Shown: positions 9,988-64,000 of the stretch, one piece after another
How positions within the stretch are numbered: the first letter of the stretch is position 1
Layout: the number at the start of each line of letters is the position of its first letter
NCBI GenBank assembly: GCA_963922205.1
Contig: CAWUHX010000079.1
Span: forward strand, 186,001 to 250,000
Direction: 5' to 3'
Origin: Romanomermis culicivorax
Lineage: Eukaryota > Nematoda > Enoplea > Mermithida > Mermithidae
DNA length: 64,000 nt
The notes under the pieces: model-generated
What the model was told of the DNA's origin: nothing
The model's database searches: none
The model's input: only the letters and a program-made list of their open reading frames with translations
Program-made: the position numbers and the translations under genes

Positions 9988-10259
9988 AAAAAACAGTATT
10001 CAGAATTTCCTCTGATTTATCAGTCATTGAAAGCCTATAAAGTTTGATGGGGTCGAAACTTTCCAAATTACGGTCGAAACTGGCATTTTTGGACTCCTCA
10101 AGATGCCAGCTATCCAGATCAGTTCGAAAATCCGGGCGCTGATGGCATTCAGGAACTCATTTAAATAAAATCTGCACACATCTCACATAGTCCTTGTCAC
10201 TACAGAAAAATCCTACCTGCTTCAAGAATCGAACATGGTCCACCAGCCTATGGATTTAA

Positions 10260-10553
10260 CATACCTGTAGTTGGGTGACCCCCCCAGCTTGGCCAACCAT
10301 ATACCCAACCTCCCCCCCCCCCGTTTGGAAAAAATTAAAAAAATTTGCAAAAAAGTGTAAGGTAAAGTGGGGTGACTCTGATCAGGGGCGACTTTGATCA
10401 GAGTATAGCATTTGAAAACTATTTGAGATCAGCAGGTCATTTTTGCTGTGCTGTGTAGACAACCTGAAAAATTTCGACTTTTTCCGACCGCCTCCCCCCA
10501 AATTTTGGATTTACTACCCCCCCCCCCCACCTGGTCGGAGGTCTAACAGGTAT
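10260..10553. mobile_element. CATACCTGTA-type MITE with nested foldback fragment
   Basis: Starts CATACCTGTAG and ends AACAGGTATG with the C-rich/G-rich internal blocks (cttggccaacc, ctggtcggaggt) of this family. Its middle (about 10367-10480) is interrupted by a ggtaaagtggggtga fragment related to the foldback repeat at 12137-12318. Flanking octamers do not match. Confidence 0.6.
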
Positions 10554-10650
10554 GCTTGATACTATTTTAACTAACGATTTCATTTGGAAGAGCACCTGTA
10601 CTTGGGGGGGGACCACTCCCAACTTGGCCAACCATATAAGGTAAAATGGG

Positions 10651-33968: not shown

Positions 33969-35171
33969 CATACCTGTAAGACCTTCGACCAGTTGGGAGG
34001 GGGTAAATCCGAAATTTTGGGGGGGAGTAGGAAAAAGTCGAAATTTTTCCCAAAAAAGGTCAAAAAACATACACTTTTTGAAAATTTTTTTAATTTTTTC
34101 CAAACTGGGGGTGGGGTTGGGGGCAGTGTTTTTTTTTTTTAGCCAAATGGCCTATTTTGGCTAAAAAAATTTTGGTTTGGCTAAAAAATTTTTAGAGGTT
34201 TTAGACAAATGGCTAAAAAAAATTCGAGTACTCTTTGTTCGTAAAAATTGTATCAATGACAAGAAAACATATTGTATCAATGACAAGAAAACTCCATTAT
34301 ATTTGCCTGTCATAACAGCTGCTCCATCAGAGGTGAACATGAAAATTTTTTTTTATCAATGCCAACCATTGTAACCCATTTGTCGATCGCTTCGGCGATT
34401 GAGGACGCATCACACTTTTCTATTTCATGTTCCAAATTTTTCTCCGTCCATCAGACACTCAACATTGCACACATTCAGGTAAATCAATAGTAACTTAGAA
34501 CTACTGACATTGGTTGACTCATCAATGTGAATACAAACAGCGGAGGATCGTTTAAAAATTTCAAATTGTTCGTTTTTTACGGACTGGTTCAAAGCCGAAA
34601 TGATTTTTTAGGTCGAATACAAAGATCGATGCTTGCCTGATAGCTTTAAACTTTTTCTCCTCCTTCTCCAGACATATTTCCATCTGTTTTGCAGCTACTC
34701 AAGGCGCGGTCAATGTCAATATCACACAACAAATGAATAAAGTCCACTTTATTTATACTCATTTCTTTCTGTAGAGATGCCAACACATTTATCATAAGAC
34801 CAACGGTTTGTTTTGAAGCCTTTTTGTTTGCTGTTATCACAGCTTTTTGGAAAAAGTTAGCTTGTTATCAGATATTTATATCAGCATTTCAAAATTTGGA
34901 ACAAAAATAATCGTTTTGTTCCTGAAGTGATAACATAACTCTTGAAAACACCTTATATAACCTGTTTAATATTTAAAAAACAATCAGTGTATCACGTTTG
35001 GGCGAAATGAAAATTTTAGCTTTTGGCTAAAAAAATTTTAGTCGTTTTAGCTATTTGGCTAAAGACATCGTGCTAAAAAAAAAAACAGTGGTTGGGGGGG
35101 CAAATGATTTTGGGTACAGGGTTGGCCAAGTTGGGGGGGGGGTCCCCCCAACCCCCCCAAGTACAGGTATG
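33969..35171. mobile_element. CATACCTGTA-type MITE, split by a hAT MITE
   Basis: Ends CATACCTGTAAGACC and TACAGGTATG, exact duplication GCCATAAA (33961-33968, 35172-35179). Its own length is about 228 bp once the nested element 34124-35090 and one copy of that element's duplication are removed. It interrupts the lamin-tail reading frame. Confidence 0.9.
34124..35090. mobile_element. hAT-type MITE with TTTGGCTA subterminal repeats
   Basis: 967 bp, ends CAGTGTTTTTTTTTTTTAGC and GCTAAAAAAAAAAACAGTG, exact duplication GTTGGGGG (34116-34123, 35091-35098). Words ttggcta/tagccaa recur about eight times within 120 bp of the ends. No transposase is apparent. Confidence 0.9.
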
Positions 35172-37316
35172 GCCATAAACAACAATGTCAATTAATGATT
35201 GTTTGAGCAACTGTTTGATTTGACTGTCAACTTTGATGTATGGCATCTGTTCTGTTAGCTTTATTTCAGGAGGTCCATCAGCTTGGTATAACAAAAGCAC
35301 AGCATGGGGGTGGATATTAGCATTTGAAAAAAACTGAATAATGTTGGTGTTCTGGTAAATTTTAACCGATATGTCACTAATGGACTGTCGACTTTCAAGT
35401 TGGCATTTAGATCTAACCCACCAAACACAAAGAATCCGCCTGTAATACCAGAATTCCACAAGTTTGCCACTAATTCAATAGTAGGACCTTTTGCTCCTTG
35501 CTGATATGCCGACAAAATGACAATTTTATAGCCCCGAAGACTGTAATCTTGCAGCTGGATTGTGCTTGTTGTGCCAGGTTGGATTCTATAAGCAATCAAT
35601 TCAATGAATTCTCTTTTTTCGGGTTTTGTTGGGTCGTCACTGTTAATTTCATTGATTACAACAGTCTCAGGCTTTCCATAATTGAATATAATTAACAATA
35701 ATGGAATTATTATTAGAAAAATTTTCAGCATCATGACTATACTGCCAATATTATCAGAAATAATAGAGCAAAAATAAAAATGTATAACAAACTTTCTATG
35801 TGGTATAATTGGTGTTAAAACAACCTTGCTTTGGATTAAAATTGGGTTGGCCTATTATTTGAGAGAAAAAAGTTGTGCGGCAGCTTAGATAGTGTTGTTT
35901 GGACCAATTTTTAAAAAACATTGTTTGTATTCCAGTTATGCTGTCGTCACAAGCTTATTTACCACATATAATTTGAAAAGATTAGATTACAGGAAAAATG
36001 ATCAATGAGTTTATTATTGACGTCAGCAACCAACCAACTTTGTCAAGTTATTATTCATACGAAAGCAATAAAATTTCAGTTTAAAGTAAAAAAATTACTA
36101 TACACCGGTTTTCTGGAAAAAATTACTATATGACCAATTTTGGTCATTTTCCATACCCTGGGACCCCTGACCGTGTGCATGTATGGCCGAAAAGATATGA
36201 GTAAGAAGAGTTGAAGTTTCGGAAAACTACTTTCACGAAGCTTTTCGATTAATTTTATGTTAAAAAAGGAATAATCGTTTCAAAAAGTTTACAGACTTGA
36301 CATATTGATCTTTCTCAAAAAATGTGTGACGGAAAAAATGTGAATCTTCATTAAATATGAAGATAAAATGTTGAAGATTACCAATTAAAACATAAGATAA
36401 TACGTTTAAGATGATGAAAACTATTAAAGATTAAATGATAAGTGGGGATAGACATGCTAGAAGCTACCACTGAGCTGGGAAATAAATAATAATGCTTAGT
36501 AACGTTATAGCCGGCGCGAAGTGCCCGAAAATTTCAAGATTATGACCTGCTAAAATGCACACTTTTCTATATCCGATGTGATCAAACTCACGACTCAAAA
36601 AATTCTGCACCAGTGCAGAAATTACCTAAAAAAATTCTGCACGAAGCCTAAAAGTCTGCACTGTGTAGAAAAAAACAGTGGCTGAATGTAAGATTTTTGC
36701 ACACAGCAACCAAATTTTGGGCTAAAAAATTTTAGGCAAAAGCTAGTTTTCTTGTATTTCATTCGATTCGAGTCAGTTTTAGGCTTTTAAAATCCAGTCT
36801 TCTGAATTTTAGAGAGAAAATGAAAAAGTTGGTACGAGTAACTTGTTCGGTGCCTGGCGCCGAGATTTTAATATTCTAAAACGCTGGAAAGTGAATCAAC
36901 TTTTATTTCCTAGACAGAAGATTTAATGAAATTTTTCAATGAATTTTCAGTTGGGCATACTATGTACAATCCAAAAACTAGCAAAGCAACCAATAATTTC
37001 GATTCTTCAACCAGCAAGGATTTCTACTTGGACCAGAAATGTTTTAATCACACAAAATTCAAAAAATTTTTTAAAGATCACAAACATTTTTTGTGAAAAT
37101 AACCAAGAAAAATCTTGCTTTTTGTCAAATTCGCCAAAAACAATACAAGATTAAACATTCATCCATAAAATGTTGATAATTAAAAGCTATAAGCATTAGC
37201 TAGAATAACATTTTCTAACCACACACTAGACTAATATAGAAAAATTATAAATGAATTGAAATCCGGCGCGAACGCGAATTATTTTCCATTTTATAACGGA
37301 TAAAAATACATTTCCG

Positions 37317-42750: not shown

Positions 42751-44262
42751 GAGCTTTAAATTTTTTTAGCAAATTCATCAATTTTAGGCGTGAGCAACCG
42801 AAAATTTCTCCATGCAAGAAAGTTTTTACCCCGACCCAAGTTGCACACTGCAGTGAAATCTTGCCCGCGGAAAAAAACGAATTTGAAAGAAAATTAAAAA
42901 CTTACTTCTCTTTGGAGAATTGTAGTATCAGCAATAATTGACAGCAGAACTAAGCTATTCACCAAGGTGCGTCAAAAGAAGCCATCTGCTCTCTCCTTTT
43001 CAATCCCCTGTTCGCTTCTCAGTTCTCTCTCTCATCATTAGTCGTCTTTTGGTCTTTGATTGGGAATTCAGTATACAGTAAACTAACAATTATTTCAAAC
43101 TAACGTACCTGTGTTGCAAAAATCAAATATCGACAACCTGACCTGATCAGGATCAAAGGAAACTTTCAGCGTCCTTTTTGTTGCTCACCGACGGAAATTT
43201 TCTTCATTGATTACAGTGATAAGCGTATTAGTTTTTTTCCATATTGAGCATACTTTCATGGGACCGCTGCAATATGAATGGGGTTTAATGGAGTTGGAGT
43301 TCAATAGAGAGTCCAAAAAGGGAACATACGAACAAAAATTTTTTTTAATTGAAGATCATGAAAATTGTAAGTTGCGAACAATGATCCTGGGAGAGTTATT
43401 CCAAGCCAAATGTCCGATTTTGACCAAATTTTATATACATGTCACCCACAGAGAACATTTTCCGTGTATTGTCCAAAATATGCGGGAGCCACAAGCCTTT
43501 TTTGTGGAGCCTACTTTTGTCAAGAATTTCCAACTGATAAAATAATTATTATCTCCCTGCAAATCTATAGCCCGAAGTTCGAAAAATAGTAGTCTTGAAT
43601 ACTTGTCTGCCGCGATTCCAGATGCACTATTCAAGAAACCAGAATCAAGTGGTGTAAAACGGCCATGCAAGCGAGCAGTCGATAATTCAGTCACGAAATT
43701 CGGTCAAAAGCTGAGACGGTCCGGCGGGGACTCCTCGACAACCTGATCAGTCTATCTGGTATATTTTACTACACGGTAGAAGTAAAAAAAATATTTTATT
43801 CATAAGGTATGGCCAAGTAAATGTAGAAATAGTAGAATTTACAAATCCATCATAATTGCCGGCCCTGATTGTTTTTCTTTCAATCGTTTAGTAAGGGTAA
43901 ATTTCGGTTCTTCTGTAAAAAAAAGCAAATACAATATGGACTTAAAGAAATTGATAAAACGGGCCATGGAACCAAGTTACTTTGAACAGTGAACAATTTC
44001 GAACATAAATATGCCATTGGTTCGACGAGACTCAGCCGATCTTTAACGCTTGTTTCGTAGAACTTCACTAAAATTTAACGGTCTCTGGTATATAAAAAGC
44101 TTGTAAACCGAGAAATGACCAAAATGTTTTACACACAGGCTTCCAAAAATCATTAAATTTTAGTTGAGCAATTTTCAGTCTTATTTGATGTATAGTTAAG
44201 AGAAAATCGTGAAAATATAAAATGGTATTTGCATGCCACTGTTATTATTTACAAGCATTTAA
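42751..44262. other. Spacer with one unassigned plus-strand frame
   Basis: A plus-strand frame at 43207-43545 encodes 112 residues with fairly even composition (GPLQYEWGLMELEFNRESKK and FYIHVTHREHFPCIVQNMRE). I do not recognise the family and see no splice partners. The stretch 42780-42900 contains gttgcac/tgcaag words resembling 37480-37600, probably element debris. Confidence 0.3.
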
Positions 44263-47200
44263 GACAGAATTTTTCTAAGATTCGACCGAGGTTGTGATAA
44301 GTAAAAAATTATTCATACCTCGGAAAAACATATTTCGTACAGTTCTTTGCGCTGAACAACATGCCAGTATTCGTTTGATCTAAAAATCAAAATTCCTCTT
44401 GCAACATCAATCCAAAGGTTCAAATTTTTTGCAATTTTTGAAATTTTAGGTCACAATCATTGAAGGCCTATAAGTAATCAGGTATGCAATGTCGATCAAT
44501 AAAACTTTGTCAGGGAATGTAACAATGTAAAGTGTATATACACGACACATAGATATATGTAGCATCAAAATTATGGTTTACACTACACTTTAAATTCCAA
44601 TTTTCAGCAGTTATCAATCACTCAAATTCACTCATTTTTGTACCCCATAAAGTCAAATAATGGGTGTCATTGATTAAACTCCACTATGTTGTGGCCGGAT
44701 CCCTTGGCCACATACCCACAAAGTTTTATCAAAATAAAAAAATATTGAGTGTGCCACAGTGAAACAGGTAGAAGCCATTTTTGAATCAAATTATAAATTT
44801 TCTTTTCAAAAATACAGTCATTCACCAAAAAATCTAATAATCCAACTAAAACTTTCATGCATTGCAGGCTGACATCTTGAGTATACTATATACCCATAAG
44901 GTTTGGTCATAATATCATTATCCCTTACATGGGAAATTACACAAAGTTGAAGGCATTCTTGGTATTGTTGAAAAAACTTCCGGTGCAAAATGTTGTTCCA
45001 TTTAGTTGGAGTATTATTAATTTTAGTTCAAATCGACTACATTGCAGCAACAGTATGAGGCTACATACCAACCAACTTGCATCAAAACTATTGATACCCA
45101 TCCTATATTGAAAAACTAGAAAACTATGTTCTTTTGGTCAAGTATAAGATGAAAGATTGTTCAAATTTTAAACAAAAACTGAAAAACTCTGGATCATTTT
45201 CAGATCATAAGAGCTCAACATAAAATCGACTTGAATCTGATAGAAAGATTTGCTCTAAATCAGTTGACATTTTTAAAGAGACAGATCTACATACTAATTA
45301 ATGAAACAATTATTCAAAACAATTTGTTTTCAGTAGTTCACTTTCATATCCTAAGTGAGGATCATACATCACTGGATCCTCATTGGGTTCTTCTTCATCT
45401 TCAACACCACATTCTCCTTTCAGGTTGCTACTATAAAATGTAGTAGGTTCTTCCCGACAACAACTGGCTTACCTAGCCCAAAAATAGAGTAATTTTTTGT
45501 GGTGTGAGGAAGTCAGATCTGACAAAAGATGGGTTCCTCCTCATTTCTTAAGCCACATCTTCAGCATTGATCTTTTGAAGATATACAATGGCACTGTTGT
45601 ATTTTTCCAGCAAATATTGACATTGTTTTTCCGTCAAGGGATGACATATCTTATGCTTATTTGAAGCCCAACCTTTTTCCACAACATTGAATGAGCCAGC
45701 TTCATAATACAATTGAAGAGCGTCTTGAACTTCAGGTAAGCCAGGGGTCAGTTGAACACTTTCTAGTGTTCTACTATAGCTCTGTATTACCATATCACCT
45801 AAACTTGTTCGCTGTGGCATTAGCTTGTGGTTACCCAAAGTAAGATGCGGCAACAAGTTGTGATGAAGTACAAATATCTTTACACAGCCTTCTTCAGGGC
45901 AGTTGAATGTACCATTTTCCATTTTATCAGTGGCAGCTGGATGATCTCCAGATTCTTCTTCAAAGTTGCTGATTGTGATTTCTGGATCAATATCAATCCA
46001 GAACTTGGATGTTTGGAGGGGTGCAACCTATGGCTGGTTTTCATGAATAACATGATGGATTTAAAGCTTGTTGGTAACTGTTCGAACTTCAATATTTTCA
46101 TCTTGAATATGCTTCCAGTACCAACCTTGTAAGCTATAGTTGCCTTGATTTCAGTACGTGTGAACTGGAAATTGAAGTAGCTCCTGATACCAAATGCTTT
46201 AAGATCCATCTTTTTGTGTGGGATTTTGAGATTGCCAATGATGAGTGATGTTCCCTTGACTGTTCCATTTTCCATTTCCATGTGTCGTGGCACACATGAT
46301 GAATTCTTCAGCAGTTGTACATTGATTGTTTCCATCTATAAACAGTCGAAGTTGCCTTTTTTTTAGTGCAGTAATTCAGTCACACATGGGACTTCGGCAG
46401 ATTGAGGTTCAGAGAATTTCCATTTCTTGATAGTCACACCTGTTTTCTGAGATATTGTTGGCACCATGAGCAAGGCTGGGGAGGTACGAAAACATCCAGC
46501 ATTGTCAGATCGCACAAAAACCGCATTGATTGCGGGTTGCTCTGTCTTGTGAAGGCGAATTGAAAACATGGACAAATGTGTGGTGGTGTAGTGTCCACTT
46601 TTCATCACAAGGACATATGTGCAGTGTCATAGCAAACCGCACTTACAAAACCAGCTTGACTGATCTTCCAGTCCACTGGAAGGCAGAAATTTCATTGTCC
46701 AATCAAGATTCATTCATCTTCTGAAGGTTGCCAATGGTGTCTTTCCATGCTTCATTTGGTGCATTGATCTAAGCTGGTGTTGATGCCATTCAATATATTA
46801 CTGATACTTTCATCAGCTAAATACTCAGCTTCAACTTTATCAGTTGAGTTTGCGAATTCGAATTGAGTCACTGCCTCTTCGATGTCTTAAAGTGTCTTCT
46901 TTAATTGCTCACAATTGTCACATTTCATGTCACAAATGTGATCTGTTCATTTCTCCTGTAACTTTGCATGTATTGGATCACAAAGAGCATGCCATGAACA
47001 GTGATCAGAAATATGGGATTTTGGCTTTATGTGGAGTCACAAATCACCTTTTAAATAAAATTTTGCTTCTTTAAGCTTTGATTTAGTTTCTTGTGTCCAT
47101 GTGGGTCCGATTTATCTGAGAAAGATCCAAAAAGTTTATGTTGGTTCACTACTTTATCAGTTTCCGCTAAAAATTTGAACAATCATTCATCTTATAGTTA

Positions 47201-48064
47201 CTAAAATAACATATTTTTCTAGTTTTCTAAAATACAATGGGTGTCAATACTTTTGGTGCAAGTTGGTTGGTATGTAGCCACATACTGTCGCAGCAATATT
47301 TTTTTGAACTAGAATTAATAATACAACTAAATGGAACAACAATTTGCACCTGAAGTTTTATCAACAATATCAAGAATGCCTCTAACTTTGTGTAATTTCC
47401 CGTGTAAGGGATAATGATATTATGACCAAACCTTATGGGTATATAGACAACATGTCAGCCTTCAATACTTAGAAGCTTTAGTTGGATTATTAGAATTTTG
47501 GGTGAATGACTGCATTTTTTAACAAAAAATTTTATAAGTTTGTTCAAAAATGGCTTCCACTGTGGCACACTCAATGGTTTTTTATTTTCGAAAAACTTTG
47601 TGGGTATGTGGCCAAGGGGTCCGGCCATAACATAGTGGAGTTTAATCAATGACACTCATTATTTGACTTTACAGGGTACAAAAATGTGTGAATTTGAGTC
47701 ACTGATAACCGCTTAAAATTTGAATTTCAAGTGTAGTCTAAACTATAATTTTGATGCTACATATATCTACATGTGTCATGCATATACACGAAACATTGTT
47801 ACATTCACTGACAAAGTTTTATTGATCGATATTCCATACCTGATTACTTATAGTGCTTCAATGATTGTGACTTGAAATTTCAAAAATTGCAAAAAATTTG
47901 AACCTTTGGATTGATGTTACAAAACGAATTTGAATTTTTAGATCAAACAAACACTGGCATGTTGTTCAGCACAAAAAACTGTACAAGTATGTATTTTTGA
48001 AGTATGATTAATTTTTTACTTATCATACTTACAGGCCTCCATTGATTCTTAGAGAAATTGTGTC
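44263..48064. mobile_element. Kolobok-like element: TTAA flanks, long inverted repeats, decayed gene
   Basis: TTAA at 44259-44262 and 48065-48068 flanks inverted ends GACAGAATTTTTCTAAGA and TCTTAGAGAAATTGTGTC. The inverted arms are long, about 44263-45200 and 47110-48064, with shared blocks such as ccatattgtggc-like, cttggccacatacccacaaa and agttttattgatcgat. Between them lies a minus-strand pseudogene (45548-47060). TTAA target plus long inverted repeats is the Kolobok/piggyBac pattern; no DDD motif set is readable, so the superfamily is inferred. Confidence 0.75.
45548..47060 (-). pseudogene. Decayed transposon protein with SDNAGC motif and C2H2 finger
   Basis: Recognisable pieces in order: SWHALCDPIHAKLQEK with a CDMKCDNCEQL segment (about 46985-46880), MTLHICPCDEKWT (about 46630), VRSDNAGCF followed by KWKFSEPQSAE (46520-46380), and near the end FNCPEEGCVKIF-x-L-x3-LLPHL, a C2H2 finger, then KGWASNK. 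I know this combination from a large set of uncharacterised multicopy proteins in cnidarians and other invertebrates; I infer that it is the gene of this element. Several in-frame stops and frame changes make it non-functional. Confidence 0.6.
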
Positions 48065-54839: not shown

Positions 54840-55190
54840 TACATTCTGATATATAATGAAGCTGCACACCATTTTTTCGGGAAAATTTTTCCCCTATGAA
54901 AACCATACCCAAAATCTTTTTCCTCACTCCAAAAATATTCCACATTGTTAAAAACGTTTATAATGTGACCACAAATATTTTTTCTGCATTTTTGGAGCAT
55001 ATTACCCAAACATTCTAATGTTCAAGGAATCAGTAATCTGCAAAAATGAGAAAAAATGGAGAAAATTTCAATCAGGTGAGTCACATTGAGCTGATGAACG
55101 ATACATTGGTTTAATGCTCTACAACAGTCGAAAGCATTTTAATGATAGGTTTCTCATGAATTCACCTGCTATTAACGTTTGTGTGAGTAG
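54840..55190. other. Repeat debris between the MITE and the Polinton
   Basis: Matches, in reverse orientation, interior sequence of the element at 32727-33714 (around 33340-33640; ttttggagcatattacccaa). No gene. Confidence 0.5.
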
Positions 55191-55827
55191 TATAGAGGGG
55201 GGGGCCTGAGCGTAAAAAGCTCCCCGGCCCATGCAAAAGATAGGCGTTGGACTTGGAAAAAAAATCACAACCTCCCCGACACACAAAACATAGCCGACCT
55301 TCCGCCGACTACTATGACGTCATTTTTCCGGCTGGAAAAAAGCATGACGTCACACCTAGGCTAGAAAGAAAAAAGTTGCCGAAACTTGGCCCACCCACAT
55401 CTCCATCAAAACTCGAGATAATGTGACATATATGGTACTTTTCGGAATCAGCTCAATGAGACCTATCGATTGGTACCCAACACGACCCATTTAGGACAAA
55501 AGCCCAAATTTTGTGCAAGGGGTTCTGAAAATTTCAATTGGTGTGAGCTCTACCATTTATGTTATTTGCTAATATGCATCGCCGCCACCGTCGCCCGTTG
55601 GGGGTGGGGGAGGGAAGTTCGCCTAGCTAATAAAGCTGAAGCTGTCGCTTCAAGCTTTACATAGCTAGCCTAAATAGGAAAGTCATGCTATATATCAACA
55701 GGAAATGTGTACTCATTTGCACTGATCACAAGATCAGTCCCAGCGCCAGCCGCGAGGAGGCTAGTACACATCTGGCGCCAATACCTTCATAGAAAGTACC
55801 CACAATACCTGTTTTTTTTTGTTTTTT
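55191..55827. other. Putative Polinton terminal region with paired TGACGTCA sites
   Basis: No coding sequence. Two perfect CRE/ATF palindromes TGACGTCA lie at 55315-55322 and 55345-55352, 22 bp apart, in a GC-richer segment. By analogy with Polinton layout this should include a terminal inverted repeat, but its copy is not in the window. Confidence 0.4.
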
Positions 55828-56007
55828 CTACTTTTTCCTAGTATAGTTGTGATCCCAAGTGGATTCTTTCTTCATCAGCCTTTTCGTTCTTTTAATTGGT
55901 GAAGGATCAGCACCCAATTCTCTATATCTTCCAGCTTGAACATATCTACACACAGCATAATGCACAGAATGCATAGGAATTTTCCCACATAAGTTGCAAG
56001 GCTCCAT
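55828..56007 (-). CDS. Small zinc-binding protein of the Polinton, 59 residues
   Basis: Starts at the ATG complementary to 56005-56007 and stops at TAG 55828-55830. It begins MEPCNLCGKI with C4 and C7, followed by a HYAVC segment (H16, C20), forming a plausible CxxC...HxxxC zinc site. The rest is strongly basic (PIKRTKRLMKKES). A TATAAATATA sequence at 56041-56050 lies 34 bp upstream. It is the last gene of the left-hand end. I do not recognise a family; a DNA-binding or regulatory role would fit but is inference. Confidence 0.55.
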   Translation of the reverse strand: MEPCNLCGKIPMHSVHYAVCRYVQAGRYRELGADPSPIKRTKRLMKKESTWDHNYTRKK

Positions 56008-56099
56008 TGCAGAGAATGAATGTTTGAGCTTTCTATATGATATATTTATACCAGTGGGTAGTACTGTAATTGAAATATACTAACACTTGCTCATCAAGT

Positions 56100-56612
56100 T
56101 CAAAAATTGACAAGTAACTCTTTGAAGTTCTTCTCCAGTTCCCCGTAGGTCTTTGCTCCTGTAATAATAATTTTACCATTGTGAAAAATCAATGCACATA
56201 AGCCTTGCTTGTTAATTGTATATTTAAGTGCAGGAAATAATTCAGGAGAATAATCACATTGACCCCTATGAGTGTTATAGAATTCCTCAACATTTATACA
56301 GTGATCTAGGGCATATGACCCAACAACATTGCACATTTTAAATTTCCTGGGTCTTGGCTGATAACCGAGTTTGAGCAGTATTTCTGCTGCATAATCTATA
56401 CTTTTCACAGCCTGCTGAATTGCTTTAATGCCCACGCATATGAGCTTCCCATTTTCGTACAATAGTAGACAACATTTTGGATCATGGAGGTGCCAAATCA
56501 GTGACCTGAATTTTCCCATAGCCAGTTTAGAGCCATCCAATTTTTTAACAAGTGAGTCCAAATTGAGTCGACAGCCAAGTTCAGCTGTGATAGTAATGTT
56601 TTGTACTTGCAT
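56100..56612 (-). CDS. TATA-binding protein (TBP) homologue encoded by the Polinton
   Basis: 170 residues, consisting of only the TBP core saddle with no N-terminal extension. Two direct repeats are clear: VQN-x-T-x-ELGCRLNLDSL at 3-21 and MCNVVGSY at 93-100. The DNA-contacting Asn residues are kept (N5, N95). Of the four aromatic residues that kink TATA DNA, three are Phe (F35, F126, F143) and one is Tyr (Y52). The stirrup segments are YENGKLICVG and FHNGKIIITGAK, and YSPELFPAL keeps part of the TFIIB contact surface. The basic helix between the repeats is much less basic than in cellular TBP, suggesting altered TFIIA/NC2 contacts. The start lies 2 nt after the minor capsid stop with no TATAAAAGTTG of its own, so it may share that transcript. 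The intact frame contrasts with its broken neighbours. Proposed role: recognising the element's own TATA motifs. Confidence 0.88.
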   Translation of the reverse strand: MQVQNITITAELGCRLNLDSLVKKLDGSKLAMGKFRSLIWHLHDPKCCLLLYENGKLICVGIKAIQQAVKSIDYAAEILLKLGYQPRPRKFKMCNVVGSYALDHCINVEEFYNTHRGQCDYSPELFPALKYTINKQGLCALIFHNGKIIITGAKTYGELEKNFKELLVNF

Positions 56613-56614
56613 TT

Positions 56615-57379
56615 TTAGAATAAACTTCGCCTTCTAAAGTGTAACTTCACAATTGTTTTACCAGTGACAAATTTTATAGGTTTGTTTTGATCTGTTCTAA
56701 TTGAAATTTCGATAGAATCGATATCTTTTACGAGTACAGGCAAGTAGTGAGGAGCTATATATATCTTATCTATTATGTCACCAAAAGCTCCCTCTATATT
56801 AACAATACGGAGGAGGGGGGCTAAAATATCACCAGCAATCTGTTGTTCAATGATGTTACAATAAACATACATAGTTTCGAGACCAGCCTTCATATAAGCA
56901 GGGTGTGCAGCAGCAATTTTCAATTTTTCAGATGAAGTTGTTTCTAGTTGTGATTTCTCAAAGCCCAACAGGTAGAGTAAAGGATCACTTAATTTTATGC
57001 TCTTTATTCTAGTCAAGTTCACTTTCAGGACAACTGCTCTGGCTAATCTCCTGTATGAAAATTTGATAAACTCATTATATGGAACTTTTTCCTGTTCACT
57101 CAACAACCTGATTGATTGTTGAATAGCTTCAATTAAGTCTATTACAGATTCATACCTTGTAGAAGGTACTTTTAGTAATTGCCTAGTATTGGTCTGAAGA
57201 TCATAAAATTTTATTACACTATCACTAGGTGTTATATTGAACCACGTATTTGGGTAGATGAATTCACAACCTTGCAAAATCAATCTATGAGGCAACCTGA
57301 TACTAAAATTTGAAGCCGAGTTACTCGGATCGCTCTGAGCATTGCTCGGTAATGTTACATAAAACTGTGAAAAATCCAT
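56615..57379 (-). CDS. Polinton minor capsid (penton-like) protein
   Basis: 254 residues from the ATG at 57379; an upstream in-frame ATG at 57394 lies only 12 bp from the TATA motif and is less likely to be transcribed. The N-terminus FYVTLPSNA, followed by SNFSIRLPHRL and YPNTWFNI, is the signature of the Polinton minor capsid family, thought to form the vertex penton with a jelly-roll fold. Compared with my expectation of that family, a few residues seem missing between ILQG and CEFIYP. The C-terminus is basic (KLHFRRRSLF). Its gene follows the protease and precedes TBP by 2 nt. The frame is open throughout. Confidence 0.85.
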   Translation of the reverse strand: MDFSQFYVTLPSNAQSDPSNSASNFSIRLPHRLILQGCEFIYPNTWFNITPSDSVIKFYDLQTNTRQLLKVPSTRYESVIDLIEAIQQSIRLLSEQEKVPYNEFIKFSYRRLARAVVLKVNLTRIKSIKLSDPLLYLLGFEKSQLETTSSEKLKIAAAHPAYMKAGLETMYVYCNIIEQQIAGDILAPLLRIVNIEGAFGDIIDKIYIAPHYLPVLVKDIDSIEISIRTDQNKPIKFVTGKTIVKLHFRRRSLF

Positions 57380-57406
57380 TTTTTGATATGTCATTATGGT
57401 AGAAAC

Positions 57407-57417
57407 TAACTTTTATA
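57407..57417 (-). promoter_or_regulatory. TATA motif (TATAAAAGTTA) for minor capsid gene
   Basis: One mismatch. Includes the distal stop of the protease frame. ATG 28 bp downstream at 57379. Confidence 0.7.
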
Positions 57418-57907
57418 TTCTGTTGAGCTGTTCAAATAAAAATGCATCATCATATATGGGAGTATTTGTTCTAAAGAGACTGTTGATGAAGCCAGTGACA
57501 AATTCATCAGCATAGCTTTGTTCCAAACTAGCAGCAATATCCCTCATTCTTATACCTCTGACTGCCTACACAAGAAAGTATACACATAACTGACCACATG
57601 TAGCAGTCAGGTACTGTTGAACACATTTGGTATTGCACTTGTAAGAAGTAGATATAGTCTTGATGTAATTCCTAAGCTGTTGAGGTGGTCCCAGGCCGTA
57701 ACTGTCAAAATAACAACATGCATGTTTTTTATTGACAAACAGAGCTACCCAGTGTGAACCAGGTTCATCCTGCTCATCCAGATTTACAACCAATGCTGCA
57801 GGTACAGTGTCAAGAGGTGGTAAACAGTCTATAGGAAATACCCCACTGAAGATTTGTCTGAGAGATTGATCTCTATTGATCAAGATGTAGATTTCAGAGG
57901 TATTCAT
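57413..57907 (-). pseudogene. Adenain-type cysteine protease with one in-frame stop
   Basis: Maturation protease of the adenovirus C5 type. The triad is visible: H52 in GSHWVALF, D68 in YFDSYG and C104 in CGQLC, with Gln98/99 upstream as the oxyanion residue. The start ATG overlaps the capsid stop (ATGA). A TAG at 57566-57568, right after the segment CVYFLV, ends the frame at 113 residues. The same frame then continues with family-like sequence to TAA at 57413-57415, where that stop is part of the next TATA motif. The triad lies before the stop, but the lost C-terminal helix region is normally needed for folding. Confidence 0.85.
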
Positions 57908-59205
57908 GCAGTATAGTCATTAAAGACGTGTCTATTTTTATCAATCATAATCAAATTGTCAAATTCTGCATAAACAATAACTTCTATACCTGCGTCAGGT
58001 ATCCTATCAGCAAATGTCAATTCGATACTTGTGGAACCATCTCTAATCAAGTCCCAATGTCCACTATCATCTTCGTCAGGTGTAAAATCGAAGGCAAAGT
58101 AGCACTGTCCATTTTTAAAATTAAGTCTGCTAATTCCATTCCCTTTGTTATCTTTAGCCATGTCTAGAGTTTCAAAGCGCTGATCATACACTCGAATATA
58201 TTTGTTGTTGGCGAAATCAAGACTTAATGGTGTCACTGGAAAAGCTTGACCACCAGAGATGACCTTGACTTCACTTATACTGTAACATTTAAAATTGAAT
58301 GGAGATTTTTTTATTTCTCCACGATATGCATCCGCATTGACACATGCTATAATCATCGTACGTGGCAACTGACCAGTGAATAGAGTATTCAGAGGTGTAG
58401 ATTGTGTTGTACTAGCAATATGAAGATTCACCATTTGGACTCATCTAATTGGGTACTTTACTGATGTCTTTAACATTGCTTTTTCCAGAGCCAATCCAAC
58501 ACTGTCGAGAACTTCAACTTTCCTGATGAAGAGCTTCATCTGGGAAACTTCCAATTTTGCATTTTCTGCATCACCAGCTGGGCACTGTAATACAAATGGA
58601 TTACTATTGCAAATCAATTCCAGTTTGAGCTCAGTATTGCTGAGTAAATATCGATCTTGCATTAGAAGATCAATATGAAGAGGAGCTGTTATTTCAACTG
58701 TTTGACCATTTTCAAAGTATTTTACTCTATCTTTAAAGCCCTGGCAATCAGCAGTATCTATTTTAGGACCAGCTTCCATAGTATACAAAGAAGACTGTAA
58801 GTGACTATTTTTAGCATCAAACCCAAAATTTAAATCAGTTTCAAAGAATGCTCTGTAGGCATACTTATCCCCACTATCATGAATGAGACGACCATTCAGG
58901 AAGAGCTTCACTTGTCGGAAAAATGCTTTACCAATCAGGTTGATAGGTGCAATTACTGGTGCAGCTCCACCAGCAGGAACAGTGTAAGTAATTTTCAAGG
59001 TCATGTACAGATAATTTTTGCTAAGCTGAATCATGTGAGGATCTGGAGGTATACGAAATTCGTATGGACCATCATTAGTGATAGGATTTATCGGGTTAAC
59101 TTCATCCCAGTAGCCTCGTTTAATTACTACTTGTGTGGGAGGAACAGTGAAAAAGTCCAATTCAGACTTTGTACTAATACTAGAAATTGTATCAATTAGA
59201 GCCAT
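57904..59205 (-). pseudogene. Polinton major capsid protein with one in-frame stop
   Basis: Hexon-like double jelly-roll capsid protein. Start chosen at MALIDT (59205), 40 bp after TATAAAAGTTG, rather than the upstream in-frame ATG at 59247, which overlaps the motif. Typical segments: DFFTVPPTQVVI, GPYEFRIPPDP, FFRQVKLFLNGRLI and YAYRAFFETDLNF. A TGA at 58441-58443 follows VKYPIR, a conserved junction, and the same frame continues with FTGQLPRTMIIACVN to TGA 57904-57906. Total span 434 codons, the normal size of the family. The stop splits it near the boundary of the two jelly rolls. A CGA to TGA transition would explain it. The start overlaps the end of the pX-like gene by 14 nt. Confidence 0.9.
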
Positions 59206-59614
59206 GTTTCCTTCTCTTTTTCTTTGAGAATATATCATTTTTCTCAACTTTTATACCTTTTGGTCTAGTCCCCAAGCCTCTCCCAGTGTGCAGGGCATCT
59301 CCAGCACTGTGAGCCAACTTGGAGAGTGCTGCTCGGCCATGTTCTTCTAGAGACTCTTTAATAGATCGACCTTCTGCTAAATCTCCAGCAATATGTGCAC
59401 ATGTAGATAGCGCTTGCTTACCAATATGGCCAGCAGCTGACTTAATAACAGGAATGGCCATTCTGAATAATGATCTAAAGAAGCTTCCTAGACCTGCTCC
59501 ACGTTGATAGGGTGTGCCTTTGAAGCCTTTGAAACCATAGCCAGTTTGTTCAGCTTGTTCAGTATAGTACTGAAGCCAAGTTGCATAATCTTCCGGATTA
59601 AAGTATTGTCTCAT
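59192..59614 (-). CDS. pX-like basic virion core protein
   Basis: 140 residues. The N-terminal YGFKGFKG and QRGAGLGSFFRSLFRMAIP motifs are typical of the small capsid-associated protein found just upstream of the Polinton major capsid gene, similar to adenovirus pX/pVI-type peptides with an amphipathic, possibly membrane-active segment. The GxG sites look like adenain cleavage targets. The middle is Ala-rich helix, the end strongly basic (FSKKKRRKHGSN). The codons ATA AAA GTT GAG (IKVE, about 59244-59255) also form the TATA motif of the capsid gene. The frame is open. Confidence 0.75.
   Translation of the reverse strand: MRQYFNPEDYATWLQYYTEQAEQTGYGFKGFKGTPYQRGAGLGSFFRSLFRMAIPVIKSAAGHIGKQALSTCAHIAGDLAEGRSIKESLEEHGRAALSKLAHSAGDALHTGRGLGTRPKGIKVEKNDIFSKKKRRKHGSN
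59245..59255 (-). promoter_or_regulatory. TATA motif (TATAAAAGTTG) for major capsid gene
   Basis: Exact consensus inside the pX-like coding sequence. Capsid ATG 40 bp downstream. Confidence 0.75.
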
Positions 59615-59644
59615 CTTTATAAATTTACAAAATACTGTAAATTA

Positions 59645-59655
59645 CAACTTTTATG
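59645..59655 (-). promoter_or_regulatory. TATA motif (CATAAAAGTTG) for pX-like gene
   Basis: One mismatch. It overlaps the stop of the upstream gene. ATG 31 bp downstream. Confidence 0.65.
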
Positions 59656-60379
59656 CTTTTCCAAATTCTAACCATCTAGGACTTGGTGTGATGCTTTTGG
59701 GTGCCTTAATTTTTTTACCATCTATGGGTCCACTCGGGGAAGCAAATGTTTCATCACTTTCACTTCCAACATTTAGCCTCGACTTATTTACAAAAAGATC
59801 TCGAGGCACATTCTCCTTTAAGAGGTTCTTTACAAACAATTCTGACCCTATTGATTGCTGGCGCCTCGGACCAACTCTCGCCACATCAGAAATCAAATCA
59901 ACAATGTTGGTTCCACTTATTTTGGTGCCTTTCAGAATCATTTCTCCTTTATCCGACCACTCCATGTGTGGATTATCTTTAGCATAATCATATAACATTT
60001 TAGCTTGACTATGCCACTTTTTTGGTACAATTTTCATGGTTTTTTCATACAGCACATCTTTTCTCGGGGTCACATCAACAGTGCTTTCAGCAGTGTCTGG
60101 CTTTTTTTGCTTTGGTGTTATTTCTTCCAAATCAGGAATGGGGTGTTCTGCAACAGGTTCACTAACAGTCAACTCATAAGGTCTGGTTTGATCCTGCATA
60201 GCCTACCTATATCTGTGCAACACTTGATTGTATAAGATTATCTTTCTGTCAGAGGGCAATGACTTATTAGTTAAAATGTCATTCATTTCTTTATCCAAAG
60301 CAGTCATTACATTAGCTGCTATGTCTTCCCTATGACCAATGTCATGCGGTACAAGAATCATTTTATTTGTATGCATCAT
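59651..60379 (-). pseudogene. Polinton virion-associated protein, one in-frame stop near N-terminus
   Basis: Family known only as a hypothetical protein beside the Polinton capsid genes. Starts at ATG 60379 overlapping the TGA of the H1-like gene, with MILVPHDI and an ILYNQVLHRYR segment. A TAG at 60203-60205 follows. The frame continues from 60199 as a 182-residue stretch ending LEFGKA. Its central part NPHMEWSDKGEMILKGTKI, then SGTNIVDLISDV, corresponds to the conserved W-x-x-GEI-x-x-G-x-x-IPGSNIVDLVND block of the family. Its TAA stop lies within CATAAAAGTTG (59645-59655). Function unknown; a capsid or scaffold role is assumed from its neighbours. Translation could also restart at 60199. 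Confidence 0.75.
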
Positions 60380-60720
60380 CTTTTTATAATTGCATCAGCT
60401 AGTAATTGTCCAGCTATTCCTAAGATTGGTGCCAACAATACAGGCAAAAATTCACCTTTTTGTTCTAGAATGTCTCGTCTTTTGCTGAGACTTGTTTTCT
60501 CATCTGCTAATACTCGTAAATGTCCCTTGTGGGAACTTAATTAATTCAAGGTATTTTTGTCAACTTTTATATTGCCTTCGAGGAAGTTGAGTATACATTC
60601 ACACAAACAAAGTATCAGTTCATGATCAGCGGTGCTAATAATAGCTTTACGTTGCTTGGGTTTAGCCTTAGCTAGTACCCTAATGTAATCAATATTATGT
60701 CTAAGATGATCACAAGGCAT
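60376..60720 (-). pseudogene. H1-like basic protein, one in-frame stop
   Basis: Starts MPCDHLRHNIDYI at 60720, 26 bp after TATAAAAGTTG. The NIDYIRVLAKAKPKQRKAI and DHELILCLCECILNFLEGN segments match the small conserved Polinton protein usually of about 100-130 residues. A TAA at 60541-60543 cuts it after 59 residues. The frame then continues with a basic stretch (LADEKTSLSKRRDILEQKG) and a hydrophobic end (FLPVLLAPILGIAG) to TGA 60376-60378. The exact motif TATAAAAGTTG also occurs inside the coding part (60561-60571, codons for IKVD). Confidence 0.8.
60561..60571 (-). promoter_or_regulatory. Intragenic TATA motif (TATAAAAGTTG) in H1-like gene
   Basis: Exact consensus read as codons for IKV. 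The next gene starts 182 bp downstream at 60379, further than usual, so this could be a promoter or chance. Confidence 0.4.
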
Positions 60721-60745
60721 TTTGACTATAAAACTCAAGAATAGA

Positions 60746-60756
60746 CAACTTTTATA
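60746..60756 (-). promoter_or_regulatory. TATA motif (TATAAAAGTTG) for H1-like gene
   Basis: Exact consensus. Its TAA is the stop codon of the ATPase. ATG 26 bp downstream. Confidence 0.75.
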
Positions 60757-61375
60757 CTTTTGGCACATATATCGTGGAAAATTTTGAGAAAATATCAGCT
60801 CTGAGTCTAAGTTTATCAGGTGTTGTTTGAGAAAGATCAACAATTATATAACTGTATGGTTTAAACGTGGCATCTTCGAAGGACTCGAGAAAGTACTTTA
60901 CTTTATCAGGAAACAATTGTCTAGCCAAAGTTTTTACTTGGAGCCTATCTGCAGGATTTTTCATCAAAACAAGGTACTCTGCATTTATTCTAGATGTTTT
61001 TAGACCCTCGAAGAAAACATTTTGAACAATGTGTATCACAGACACATTCATGTGATGACATCCACGAGTAAAAAGAATGTCCAGGTGCTTATTTTTAGCC
61101 ATTTCCTGCATGAGATCATCTAGTATAACAAGTTGGGGTGCAGGACTGAGCTCTCTTATCAAGTTCATGTCAGGTAATCCCTGATAGAAGTTGACTCTGC
61201 CAGACAAGTCATTGTAGACTGGCTGCTTCTCACTAAAGAACCAGTGAATATGTTCAGGAACGGGTTCAATCAAGTACTTCACATTTAGTACTAAATTCTT
61301 TACAAAGGTTGTTTTACCCGCTTTTGTAGGGCCAGCAACAATACATGCAAAGGGGTGATTAAATTTTATAGCCAT
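60752..61375 (-). CDS. Genome-packaging ATPase (FtsK/HerA type)
   Basis: 207 residues from MAIKF at 61375, chosen because it lies 21 bp after TATAAAAGTTG; an in-frame ATG at 61417 would precede the promoter. Walker A GPTKAGKT at 15-22, Walker B LVILDDLM with D86/D87, and FTRGCHHMNVSVI plus VQN as the sensor region. It is an A32-like ATPase expected to pump DNA into capsids. The frame ends YVPKV, and its TAA (60752-60754) is part of the following TATA motif. No internal stop, full length for the family. Confidence 0.92.
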   Translation of the reverse strand: MAIKFNHPFACIVAGPTKAGKTTFVKNLVLNVKYLIEPVPEHIHWFFSEKQPVYNDLSGRVNFYQGLPDMNLIRELSPAPQLVILDDLMQEMAKNKHLDILFTRGCHHMNVSVIHIVQNVFFEGLKTSRINAEYLVLMKNPADRLQVKTLARQLFPDKVKYFLESFEDATFKPYSYIIVDLSQTTPDKLRLRADIFSKFSTIYVPKV

Positions 61376-61395
61376 GTTTTTTTTCAATAGATTCT

Positions 61396-61406
61396 CAACT
61401 TTTATA
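61396..61406 (-). promoter_or_regulatory. TATA motif (TATAAAAGTTG) for packaging ATPase
   Basis: Exact consensus, 21 bp before the chosen ATG at 61375. Confidence 0.75.
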
Positions 61407-61419
61407 ACATGCAACATGC

Positions 61420-61526
61420 TGGAAATACCAGCAATTGTGCTTTGATTTTTTTTTTTTTAATTTTTTTCTTGTCTTTTTTTTATTACAATATTTACTCACA
61501 ATTATTACAATATTAATAGGGTATAT
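61420..61526. other. Poly-T/pyrimidine tract between ATPase and upstream gene
   Basis: Long T runs on the plus strand (A runs on the coding strand), including more than ten consecutive T at about 61447-61459. No frame. Confidence 0.6.
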
Positions 61527-61844
61527 CTATACCTTCATCATTATATTTTTGTAAGCCTCTGGTGTAAGATTCATCCAGATCTCAAAAAGAAGGGGTCCAG
61601 CACTACAAGTTTTCATCAAACCCTCTAGTGCCTTGGCAAAATGCCAAAACCCAGTCAGTTTTCTCTTACCCGTATGATGATCCAGCTCATTGGCCACTTT
61701 AGCCAAAATCTTCCATTCACGCTTGTAGCCATCATTTATTCGATCCCAAAAATATGAGGCATATCTGGCCACATCTTTTTGAGTATAAGGTCTTTTGAGA
61801 AAAGTGCCCATACTCAGTGCAACATTTAAAAAAATACCTTCCAT
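61527..61844 (-). CDS. Polinton protein of unknown function, 105 residues
   Basis: Starts MEGIFLNVAL at 61844 after TATATAAGTTG (61907-61917, 63 bp upstream). Composition is mixed with Trp and aromatic residues (YASYFWDRINDGYKREWKI), without signal peptide, zinc site or membrane span. It lies between the zinc-ribbon gene and the ATPase. I do not recognise it. Confidence 0.6.
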   Translation of the reverse strand: MEGIFLNVALSMGTFLKRPYTQKDVARYASYFWDRINDGYKREWKILAKVANELDHHTGKRKLTGFWHFAKALEGLMKTCSAGPLLFEIWMNLTPEAYKNIMMKV

Positions 61845-61906
61845 TTTGAAAAAGTGACTAAACTGTAGAAGGAAAAGTTTGAAGACTGAAGACTAAGGAG
61901 AATTTA

Positions 61907-61917
61907 CAACTTATATA
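61907..61917 (-). promoter_or_regulatory. TATA motif (TATATAAGTTG) for the 105-residue protein
   Basis: One mismatch to the consensus. ATG 63 bp downstream. Confidence 0.55.
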
Positions 61918-61956
61918 CATAAAAAATGTTACAGAATACTTGCAAATCCCATTTCA

Positions 61957-62232
61957 CTAGTTTACTGTAGGCTTCAAGATGAGTGCCTGTCTATCAGCTA
62001 ACTGTTTCTTTAGTACAGCGGTGCCAGCTTCCTGCAATGCCTTATTGTATTCCAGACATTTTGGGCATATTTCAATAGTAAAGAATGTTTTGCCCTGAGA
62101 CAACTGGAAACACTCCCGTTCAGAGCTGTTCTTTTGACAAAAGTAACACAGTTCAATCATTAAGGGATACATCGCTCTTGGCAAGTTTCGAGCGCAGAGT
62201 TGAATAGGAGCTTTAACTTTTTTTGACTCCAT
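61957..62232 (-). CDS. Zinc-ribbon-like Polinton protein, 91 residues
   Basis: Two CxxC pairs (C29-x2-C32 in CYFCQ and C56-x2-C59 in ICPKC) separated by 23 residues form a likely zinc ribbon, with additional C13 and C41. Basic N-terminus MESKKVK, helical C-terminus. Upstream is TATACAAGCAA (62267-62277), a weak relative of the common motif. A regulatory or nucleic-acid-binding role is possible but unproven. Confidence 0.65.
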   Translation of the reverse strand: MESKKVKAPIQLCARNLPRAMYPLMIELCYFCQKNSSERECFQLSQGKTFFTIEICPKCLEYNKALQEAGTAVLKKQLADRQALILKPTVN

Positions 62233-62343
62233 TCTAGTTAATCAAATGATTTAAATAATTTTGAAGTTGCTTGTATACTGAAATGTCAGGCACAGGTAAA
62301 AATTTTTAGACCTGCAAATCATTGTTTAGTTTTCGTACTGTAG

Positions 62344-63396
62344 CTATAGTTTTATCAAATCTGTCACCCAACTATTGAATTTATCTGGGTGACCCTTCCA
62401 TTTAACAAAGTATTCAGTTTTCCCAGCCCTTTTTCTCTTTCAGATAATCTTTTCTATAATGCAGACGTCTGTAATCTCATCAACTTTCTGTAATTCTGGC
62501 TCATAATATACACCCTGTATGACTTCTCCCAGCTGATCTTCTATTGTATATACAGGAGGATATCTAGCTTTTTGCTCATGAATCACAAAAACTTTATCAC
62601 TCCAATTGGGAGTGTAACCCTTCTCAAAAGTCCTTTTGACTTTGCTTATGCGTACCTTGTCACCAGGGACCAGTTTAAATTGTACACTAGACTTACATTT
62701 CCTGAAAAGCTTTTCAACAATTTCAGCTTTATTCTCATCAGTAACATCAATGGGAGCAACACCTATGGTCCTATGCCTAGTCGAGTTGTAAGAGTTTAGC
62801 AGGTGGGGTAGAATGTTTAGGTAGTTGTATGTATTATTTTGAGTAAAATGACGCCACATTCTTTCCTTTAAAGTTCTATTGAACCGCTCAACAATGCTAG
62901 CCTTAGTTTCACTAGCAGTTATGAAAAAACTAATGCCAAGTATCTTTAATAAGGCCTGGAAGGCTTTGTTTGTAAACTCTGTACCAGCATCAGTCTGTAT
63001 TTTTTGTGGCTTTCTGCCAGATTTCAAAATTGTTTGGAAGGCATGCAAAATAGATGATGTATTTTTATTTTTCAAGGGTACAGGCCATGCAAATTTTGAC
63101 AGGACATCTATAGAATTTAAAAGAAATTTGTATCCATCATTTTGCCTGGCAAGTGAACTGAGGTCTGCAAGATCCATTTGCCACTGTTCATCAATATCAG
63201 TAACTAGAACATTATTCCTGGGGTAATGGCGCCTAGCATACTTGTGTACAGTATAGGTTGGCTGTTTTTGTAACCATTCCTTAACCAAATGCAGGGTGAC
63301 CCTGGGATTACTAGATTTTGCCTGTCGTAACAGGCTCTGAACACCACAATACCCTGTGCTTGGGTTAAAGTATATGCTTTCAATGAGCTTATCCAT
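62344..63396 (-). pseudogene. Polinton integrase with chromodomain, one in-frame stop
   Basis: Retroviral-type DDE integrase. Catalytic D75 (WQMDLADL), D136 (IQTDAGTEF) and E170 (ASIVERFNR) have D-x60-D-x33-E spacing. N-terminal GYCGVQSLLRQA and the EQWQMDLADL entry are typical of Polintons. The frame ends at TGA 62440-62442 after 318 residues. In the same frame the sequence continues RAGKTEYFVKWKGHPDKFNS and W to TAG 62344-62346, the core of a chromodomain, so the stop removes most of that domain. CGA to TGA would explain it. The catalytic core is intact; chromatin targeting would be lost. A GTATAAATAAAAGTT motif ends 24 bp upstream. Confidence 0.92.
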
Positions 63397-63419
63397 TTTT
63401 CTTAAGCATGCTGCTGTAA

Positions 63420-63434
63420 AACTTTTATTTATAC
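63420..63434 (-). promoter_or_regulatory. TATA motif (GTATAAATAAAAGTT) for integrase gene
   Basis: Contains ATAAAAGTT. It overlaps the stop codon of the preceding gene. Integrase ATG 24 bp downstream. Confidence 0.6.
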
Positions 63435-63644
63435 ATCTGCAATATTGAATCTGACACTTTTTGTACTAGTCCCAGGTTTTTTTGAGAACAGGTTTTCTAA
63501 ATATCGTCTCAACAATTTCAATAGAGTCAGTATTGTTAGTACAGCCAAAAGAGCCACACAATACCATATCTCAGTAAAAACTGTTTTCCTATTATGCCTT
63601 TCCAGGCAAGCTAGAAAATGTTCAATAGTGTGGTTAGCATCCAT
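63429..63644 (-). CDS. Single-span membrane peptide, 71 residues
   Basis: Start chosen at MDANHTIEH (63644), 26 bp after TATAAAAATTG (63670-63680); an in-frame ATG at 63710 lies upstream of that motif. One hydrophobic helix at about 28-45 (YCVALLAVLTILTLLKLL) follows a polar N-terminus, then a basic tail (KPGTSTKSVRFN). Stop TAA 63429-63431 is next to the integrase promoter. Function unknown. Confidence 0.6.
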   Translation of the reverse strand: MDANHTIEHFLACLERHNRKTVFTEIWYCVALLAVLTILTLLKLLRRYLENLFSKKPGTSTKSVRFNIADV

Positions 63645-63669
63645 GTTTTTTTCATTATAGAGAGCCAGC

Positions 63670-63680
63670 CAATTTTTATA
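63670..63680 (-). promoter_or_regulatory. TATA motif (TATAAAAATTG) for membrane peptide gene
   Basis: One mismatch to TATAAAAGTTG. ATG 26 bp downstream. Confidence 0.6.
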
Positions 63681-63710
63681 GCCAGCAATACATAAAAAAC
63701 ACCCAATCAA

Positions 63711-64000
63711 TTTTCAAAGAGAGTCAGTTGTTGTTTATTTACCTAAACTTTATTGATTGAAAACCTTCCCACTACATGAAACATTTTATGTAGATGAAAA
63801 GATGGTTAAGTCTGGCACATTTTTCCACTAGTGAAAGTAGCAAAGAGATCAAATTTAAAGAGCAGTGAGGTACAGTATTAGAAGCTCAAGTGATTCACAT
63901 GCTCATTGTTGTGAATCAAGGCTAGCTAAAAGGCAAGAAATACTTTTATACAAAGATAGTTGAGAAAATGACTCATAAGGTGACTGCTTGTCTAAAGAAA
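63711..64000. other. Non-coding stretch with TATA motif and polyadenylation signals
   Basis: On the minus strand TATAAAAGTA lies at 63941-63950 and AATAAA at 63749-63754 and 63734-63739, about 190 bp further. No frame longer than about 15 codons starts in between. It could be a short non-coding transcript of the element or the 3' end of a gene beginning beyond the window. Confidence 0.35.

Follow-up and report, generated by a model that had tools for sequence, protein, structure and literature searches.

Eukaryotic transcription is built on one common platform, the TATA-binding protein (TBP). Large viruses, many of which have their own RNA polymerase, are known to encode TBPs as well. The locus described here, in the nematode Romanomermis culicivorax, raises the question of whether a Polinton-like element encodes a TBP of its own and, if so, which promoters that protein would serve. 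The window, that is, the whole stretch of DNA that was analysed, comprises 64,000 nucleotides of contig CAWUHX010000079.1, and all positions are counted from its first letter. We think it probable that the element gene encodes a TBP that serves the element's own TATAAAAGTTGA-type promoters through host TFIIB and RNA polymerase II while sparing host TFIID. What the analysis shows is the family of the protein, its predicted fold, the genes around it, where the motif occurs and which residues have changed; its DNA binding, partners, freedom from regulators and timing we infer.

A diverged TBP gene

The only TBP-like frame within the 64-kb window is the following.

56100..56612, minus strand: TBP gene, ATG to TGA, 170 amino acids, both repeats (Pfam PF00352, predicted model, PDB matches)

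The Pfam TBP family PF00352 matched the frame in two stretches at 124.7 bits (E 1.4e-36), compared to a curated cut-off of 22.9 bits. Human TBP from the PDB aligned with residues 2-165 free of gaps (E about 1e-27), and identity was 33% to human, 32% to yeast and 28% to Pyrococcus TBP. All 44 PDB matches at E <= 0.001 were named TBP or were TBP-containing entries, and the predicted model had the saddle fold with a pLDDT of 92.5. Profile search and structure prediction thus bear out the initial annotation, which had read a 170-residue frame with both TBP repeats from the letters. The match is beyond chance, by E-value and by simulation, and the frame encodes a real, strongly diverged TBP within a Polinton-like gene array.

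The surrounding element

Between about 63.4 and 55.8 kb the minus strand holds a one-directional array of genes, in the order integrase, two small frames, ATPase, several small frames, major capsid, protease, 259-aa gene, TBP and a 59-aa frame.

62440..63396, minus strand: rve-type integrase, 318 aa (PF00665, 44.1 bits, cut-off 32.6)
61957..62232, minus strand: 91-aa frame whose two CxxC pairs resemble a zinc ribbon by eye; without a Pfam match
60752..61417, minus strand: A32-type packaging ATPase (PF04665, 29.3 bits, cut-off 22.8)
60541..60720, minus strand: 59-aa frame (MPCDHL...) preceded by a TATA motif (frame list, motif position)
59651..60199, minus strand: 182-aa frame without family match
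59192..59614, minus strand: 140-aa frame, basic and glycine-rich, without family match
57904..59205, minus strand: major capsid gene, putative double-jelly-roll type (75% identity to P0001; weak PF21738)
57566..57907, minus strand: adenain-type protease, N-terminal part (PF00770, 21.6 bits, cut-off 21.3)
56615..57394, minus strand: 259-aa frame in the minor-capsid (penton) position, putative penton by position
55828..56007, minus strand: 59-aa Cys/His frame downstream of TBP, without a Pfam match; TATAAATA lies 43 nt upstream of its ATG
55186..55191, plus strand: candidate left end AGTAGT, beyond TBP, the hexamer of vertebrate Maverick ends

With integrase, A32-type ATPase, adenain-type protease and capsid gene, the gene set is that of a Polinton-like element. 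The capsid was 75% identical over 436 columns to the metagenomic protein P0001 and had 134 relatives among public proteins (120 of them listed). The PF21738 score was 13.1 bits on its C-terminal piece, 24.2 on P0001 and 25.7 on P0060, none of which reaches the cut-off of 27; the relatives P0002 and P0117 gave no PF21738 match at 0.01, and a PDB search with the capsid sequence found no match. One in-frame stop (58441-58443) breaks the capsid frame, and the protease frame continues beyond an in-frame stop, with the PF00770 match covering only the N-terminal part. Stops had been claimed in five neighbours of the TBP gene; we find them in two, the major capsid and the protease, and the figure of five was not reproduced. 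The 259-aa frame had no match in a Pfam search, and its single-sequence fold reached a pLDDT of only 36.6. In the ATPase, an internal ATG at 61375, downstream of a TATA motif, is a likely start. The other long frames of the window had no Pfam match above cut-off.

The limits of the element are less sharply marked. AGTAGT is the commonest end motif of vertebrate Mavericks (PMC8097293); it occurs 29 times in the window against 17 expected and is weak alone as an end marker. Among the 25 longest of 78 terminal inverted repeat candidates between 50000 and 64000 there was no convincing pair; the element's other end lies beyond the window. Protein-primed DNA polymerase B was not seen among the listed frames; the window stops 604 nt past the integrase frame, and the polymerase gene may lie outside it.

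Within this array the TBP gene is a resident. Its ATG lies 2 nt past the stop of the 259-aa penton-position gene, its GC3 is 0.35 as compared to 0.28-0.37 in nine other element frames, and it shares the CpG depletion of its surroundings; for these reasons we assign it to the element. The observed/expected CpG ratio is 0.07-0.57 in 500-base bins of 56001-64000, where TpG/CpA is raised, climbs to 0.5-0.9 between 54 and 56 kb, and is about 0.7-1.3 in most other 2-kb bins of the window. Loss of CpG with raised TpG/CpA suggests long methylation of the element.

Elsewhere in the window, further CpG-poor stretches (0.34-0.56) lie at 10001-12000, 30001-32000, 34001-36000 and 44001-48000, and are perhaps other aged mobile elements. 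The ORFs at 29677-31844 resemble a broken transposase by eye and have no Pfam match above cut-off.

Conserved and altered surfaces of the TBP

The residues named in the initial annotation align as proposed: N5 and N95 correspond to yeast N69 and N159, F35, F126 and F143 to yeast F99, F190 and F207, and Y52 to yeast F116, the fourth phenylalanine position; the PELFP block is also present. The kinking set therefore consists of both asparagines and three of four phenylalanines, with tyrosine at the fourth. Nine of the 14 intercalating, hydrogen-bonding and groove positions examined are kept (N69, N159, T215, L114, L205, V161, F99, F190 and F207, in yeast numbering), and three more carry the conservative changes V122I, V213I and F116Y. 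ASFV B263R and apicomplexan TBPs likewise have three of the four phenylalanines (PMC5825884).

The two lobes differ in their identity to yeast TBP, 26% in the N lobe and 39% in the C lobe. The C lobe retains the DNA contacts N159, V161, F190, L205, F207 and T215, with Ile at V213, whereas the N lobe carries F116Y, V71T, T124V and V122I. The TFIIB-stirrup residues E188 and L189 are retained, and E186 is Ser. E186S and the contact changes V71T and T124V could weaken binding or the recruitment of TFIIB.

The N lobe also carries a regulatory surface. In yeast TBP, Mot1, TAF1-type regulators and Kap114 make use of a patch that consists of R90, N91, R137, R141 and K145 (PMC10491584). The element TBP has R90D, N91G, R137D and R141E and keeps K145; Q158C is a further change listed with this patch. 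With about 73% of N-lobe positions unlike those of yeast TBP, four changes in five are no enrichment, and only the three charge reversals are noteworthy; archaeal TBP likewise is without the patch's four basic residues. Loss of most N-lobe residues gripped by Mot1, TAF1 and the importin Kap114 may free the protein from these brakes.

The same changes bear on a first rival reading, that the protein is a decoy: instead of driving element genes, it would bind to promoters or to the host's TFIIB and so reduce transcription of the host. V71T, T124V and E186S, with the lost basic surface residues, make a partly active, dominant-negative TBP possible, but the saddle is well preserved and such a protein would silence the element's own TATA motifs too; we consider a decoy unlikely.

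A TATA motif ahead of element genes

Sites related to one TATA-containing motif precede several genes of the array.

61395..61406, minus strand: TATAAAAGTTGA motif, 31 nt upstream of the ATPase start at 61375
60745..60756, minus strand: TATAAAAGTTGT motif, 36 nt upstream of ATG 60720
60560..60571, minus strand: TATAAAAGTTGA motif heading the ATG-less open stretch 60379-60571 (HKGHLRVLADEKTSL...), next ATG 68 nt on
59244..59255, minus strand: TATAAAAGTTGA motif, 50 nt before the capsid ATG at 59205, with an in-frame ATG also at 17 nt
57406..57417, minus strand: TATAAAAGTT motif; the penton-position gene has its first ATG 23 nt downstream
56667..56678, minus strand: TATAAAATTTGT, which departs from the motif at two positions, within the upstream gene and 66 nt ahead of the TBP start

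The 12-base TATAAAAGTTGA has three exact copies in the window, all inside the element. Exact TATAAAAGTT occurs five times in the 64 kb with both strands counted, and all five copies are on the element's coding strand; this restriction of the exact 10-mer to strand and element is independent of how starts were chosen. With two mismatches allowed, TATAAAAGTTGA matched at 39 sites where 20 were expected, and 12 of the 39 fall within the element on its minus strand (55.8-63.8 kb). TATAAA or TATATAA occurs 15 times on the coding strand and three times on the other strand of the 8 kb.

Of 13 starts, 6 had the motif 27-90 nt upstream at up to two mismatches. The corresponding rate was 0.63% for 4000 control positions elsewhere and 0.75% for the opposite strand's 134 ATGs; the site of the penton-position gene, at 23 nt, is too close for the bracket and is uncounted. 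The P values for the motif are too kind, since the consensus was derived from the sites tested and the ATPase and 60720 starts were chosen after the motif had been seen. A test with plain TATAAA/TATATAA, which predates the motif, found 6 of 12 starts. With the rest of the window as background P was about 1e-5, and with the element's own coding strand it was weaker, 0.001-0.002. Transcription begins about 30 nt past a TATA box, and if it does so here a leader would hardly fit behind the sites at 23-31 nt; in the penton-position gene another in-frame ATG follows the first after 15 nt. Beyond the TATA box the motif carries a conserved extension, GTTGA. Because TATAAAAG is a strong site for ordinary TBP as well, the motif is no proof that the element TBP is used.

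A role for the protein at the element's own promoters had been suggested from the outset. It gains indirect support, since a shared TATAAAAGTTGA-type motif precedes several element genes; that it directs host polymerase there is a part we infer. The protein would bind TATAAAAGTTGA-type TATA elements ahead of element genes, bend the DNA as cellular TBP does, and recruit host TFIIB and then RNA polymerase II, so that transcription of element genes would be raised without use of host TFIID. In the simplest account it would be a second TBP for these promoters, which may add to the host's TBP or take its place. With its regulator patch lost, it might act beyond the control of Mot1 and TAF1.

A second rival holds that the protein is not a plain TBP and is instead a stage-specific initiator which needs more element proteins, like the TBP mimics of herpesvirus late genes, of which KSHV ORF24 is described as one. 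The conserved GTTGA extension would suit such an initiator, and the small Cys-rich frames at 55828-56007 and 61957-62232 might supply its partners, but neither has a Pfam match; we give this reading a low probability, level with that of the decoy. Still less credible is a role in replication or packaging, as a bender of DNA at the element's ends: TBP does bend DNA strongly, but the matching motifs precede genes and none lies at an end.

Selection, age and origin

Simulated neutral decay of a human TBP coding sequence to 33% identity, started from random codons and with indels uncounted, gave a mean of 6.5 stops and no stop-free frame in 300 runs, a result that speaks to the amount of divergence and not to the present copy. 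The TBP was held by selection for most of its divergence. The present element copy is old and decayed: an in-frame stop interrupts both the capsid and the protease frame, and CpG is low. As the frames of the penton-position gene, the ATPase and the integrase have stayed open as well, an open TBP frame is not strong evidence that the gene works today, and the evidence for the TBP comes from one copy in a decayed element.

Relatives were sought by searches that rely on short exact matches, which distant orthologues may escape. Whole-protein search yielded 39 candidates and none at E <= 1e-3, and search with the C-terminal half returned two proteins at 35% and 33% identity. Viral contigs searched with the single TBP sequence gave none; searched with a cellular-TBP alignment they gave 11 loci, ten of them at 23-26% in the best segment and most with archaeal-type motifs by eye. 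Phage records held no match to the TBP or to P0001. The whole-protein, C-terminal-half and viral-contig searches found no TBP orthologue in another Polinton. The gene context in other Polintons was sought in viral contigs, for which the queries were the capsid, the penton-position protein, an alignment of capsids, P0117, P0003 and a capsid DNA pattern, and in genome contigs with the pattern. The loci of the pattern (three in viral and three in genome contigs) held no capsid relative; one of them, L003, had a weak protease match (E 0.005).

Among the viral loci, L012 (9971-10699 of a 174-kb viral contig; PF00352 E 3.3e-30) encodes a TBP whose C lobe is of eukaryotic type and is followed by a long C-terminal extension, and L016 comes from a near-identical large viral contig. 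In L013 (7489-8031 of a 17-kb viral contig) the TBP is split, with its two repeats in separate frames or separate genes.

Trees of 16 and 15 TBPs placed the element TBP on the eukaryotic side (81/80 and 79/64), on a branch of 2.2-2.6, where human, yeast and Arabidopsis lie 0.1-0.3 apart; L009 (the same protein as L008), L016 (near-identical to L012) and L013 (frame in two pieces) were omitted. None of five groupings compared was rejected at 0.05, among them those with L012 (p-AU 0.32), the archaeal set, canonical eukaryotes and P0121/P0122. The TBP could have been captured from a host long ago, or another virus could be its source. At 33% identity to human TBP and with so long a branch, it is not a recent retrocopy of a canonical TBP. 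That the gene is a roleless passenger, a host TBP retrocopy that landed in the element, accords with its intronless frame but is very improbable given 33% identity without gap or stop, a neutral expectation of stops in every run, the branch length, and a start 2 nt past the neighbour's stop.

Comparison with known systems

The element TBP shares with the cellular TBPs of human, yeast and Arabidopsis the two repeats, the saddle fold, a gap-free alignment to human and most DNA contacts. It differs in its 33% identity, in Y at F116, V71T and T124V, in an altered N-lobe patch with three charges reversed, and in being encoded in a virus-like element. Giant-virus TBPs (Nucleocytoviricota such as Heterosigma akashiwo virus and mimiviruses; ASFV B263R) are likewise virus-encoded proteins of this fold, but identity was 17-21% in the two top rows of a viral structure search. 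Giant viruses that bear a TBP are known to encode their own RNA polymerase, whereas the portion of the element that the window covers showed no sign of one.

Mirusviruses and the mirus-like elements integrated in Cymbomonas also place a TBP in a virus or integrated element: two reports put it in 59% of mirusvirus genomes (PMC10132985) and sporadically in the Cymbomonas elements (PMC10675990). Mirusviruses differ in their HK97-type capsid and large genomes, and are without Polinton capsid or packaging genes. With Polintons, Mavericks and adintoviruses the element shares the rve integrase, A32-type ATPase, adenain-type protease and a capsid gene of putative double-jelly-roll type. The premise that standard Polinton gene sets are without TBP fits the core set of vertebrate Mavericks as given in PMC8097293, where further accessory genes are unlisted. 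KSHV ORF24, compared by description, is also a viral TBP-type protein steering host RNA polymerase II to viral promoters, but it is a mimic domain, whereas the element has a full two-repeat TBP. No Polinton TBP was reported in the main-text portions of the literature found, including PMC10120064, PMC8097293, PMC11071308, PMC4028283, PMC12220804, PMC7786948 and PMC11464507. New here is a known TBP family in a kind of element for which this literature reports none, together with a testable promoter set.

We advance more tentatively, as somewhat doubtful, the wider reading that a Polinton lineage has a private form of initiation on host RNA polymerase II, in which a captured TBP with an altered N lobe and charge-reversed patch is paired with an extended TATAAAAGTTGA TATA before capsid, packaging and other genes, outside the control of TFIID, Mot1 and TAF1. 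If the proposed role is true, this would be a small integrating virus that works on the host polymerase with its own TBP and matching TATA promoters. It would offer a simple natural test of how far one protein can shift promoter choice from host to parasite, and would show which TBP surfaces serve initiation and which serve only control. Polintons, whose expression is little known, would gain a concrete promoter signature for searches.
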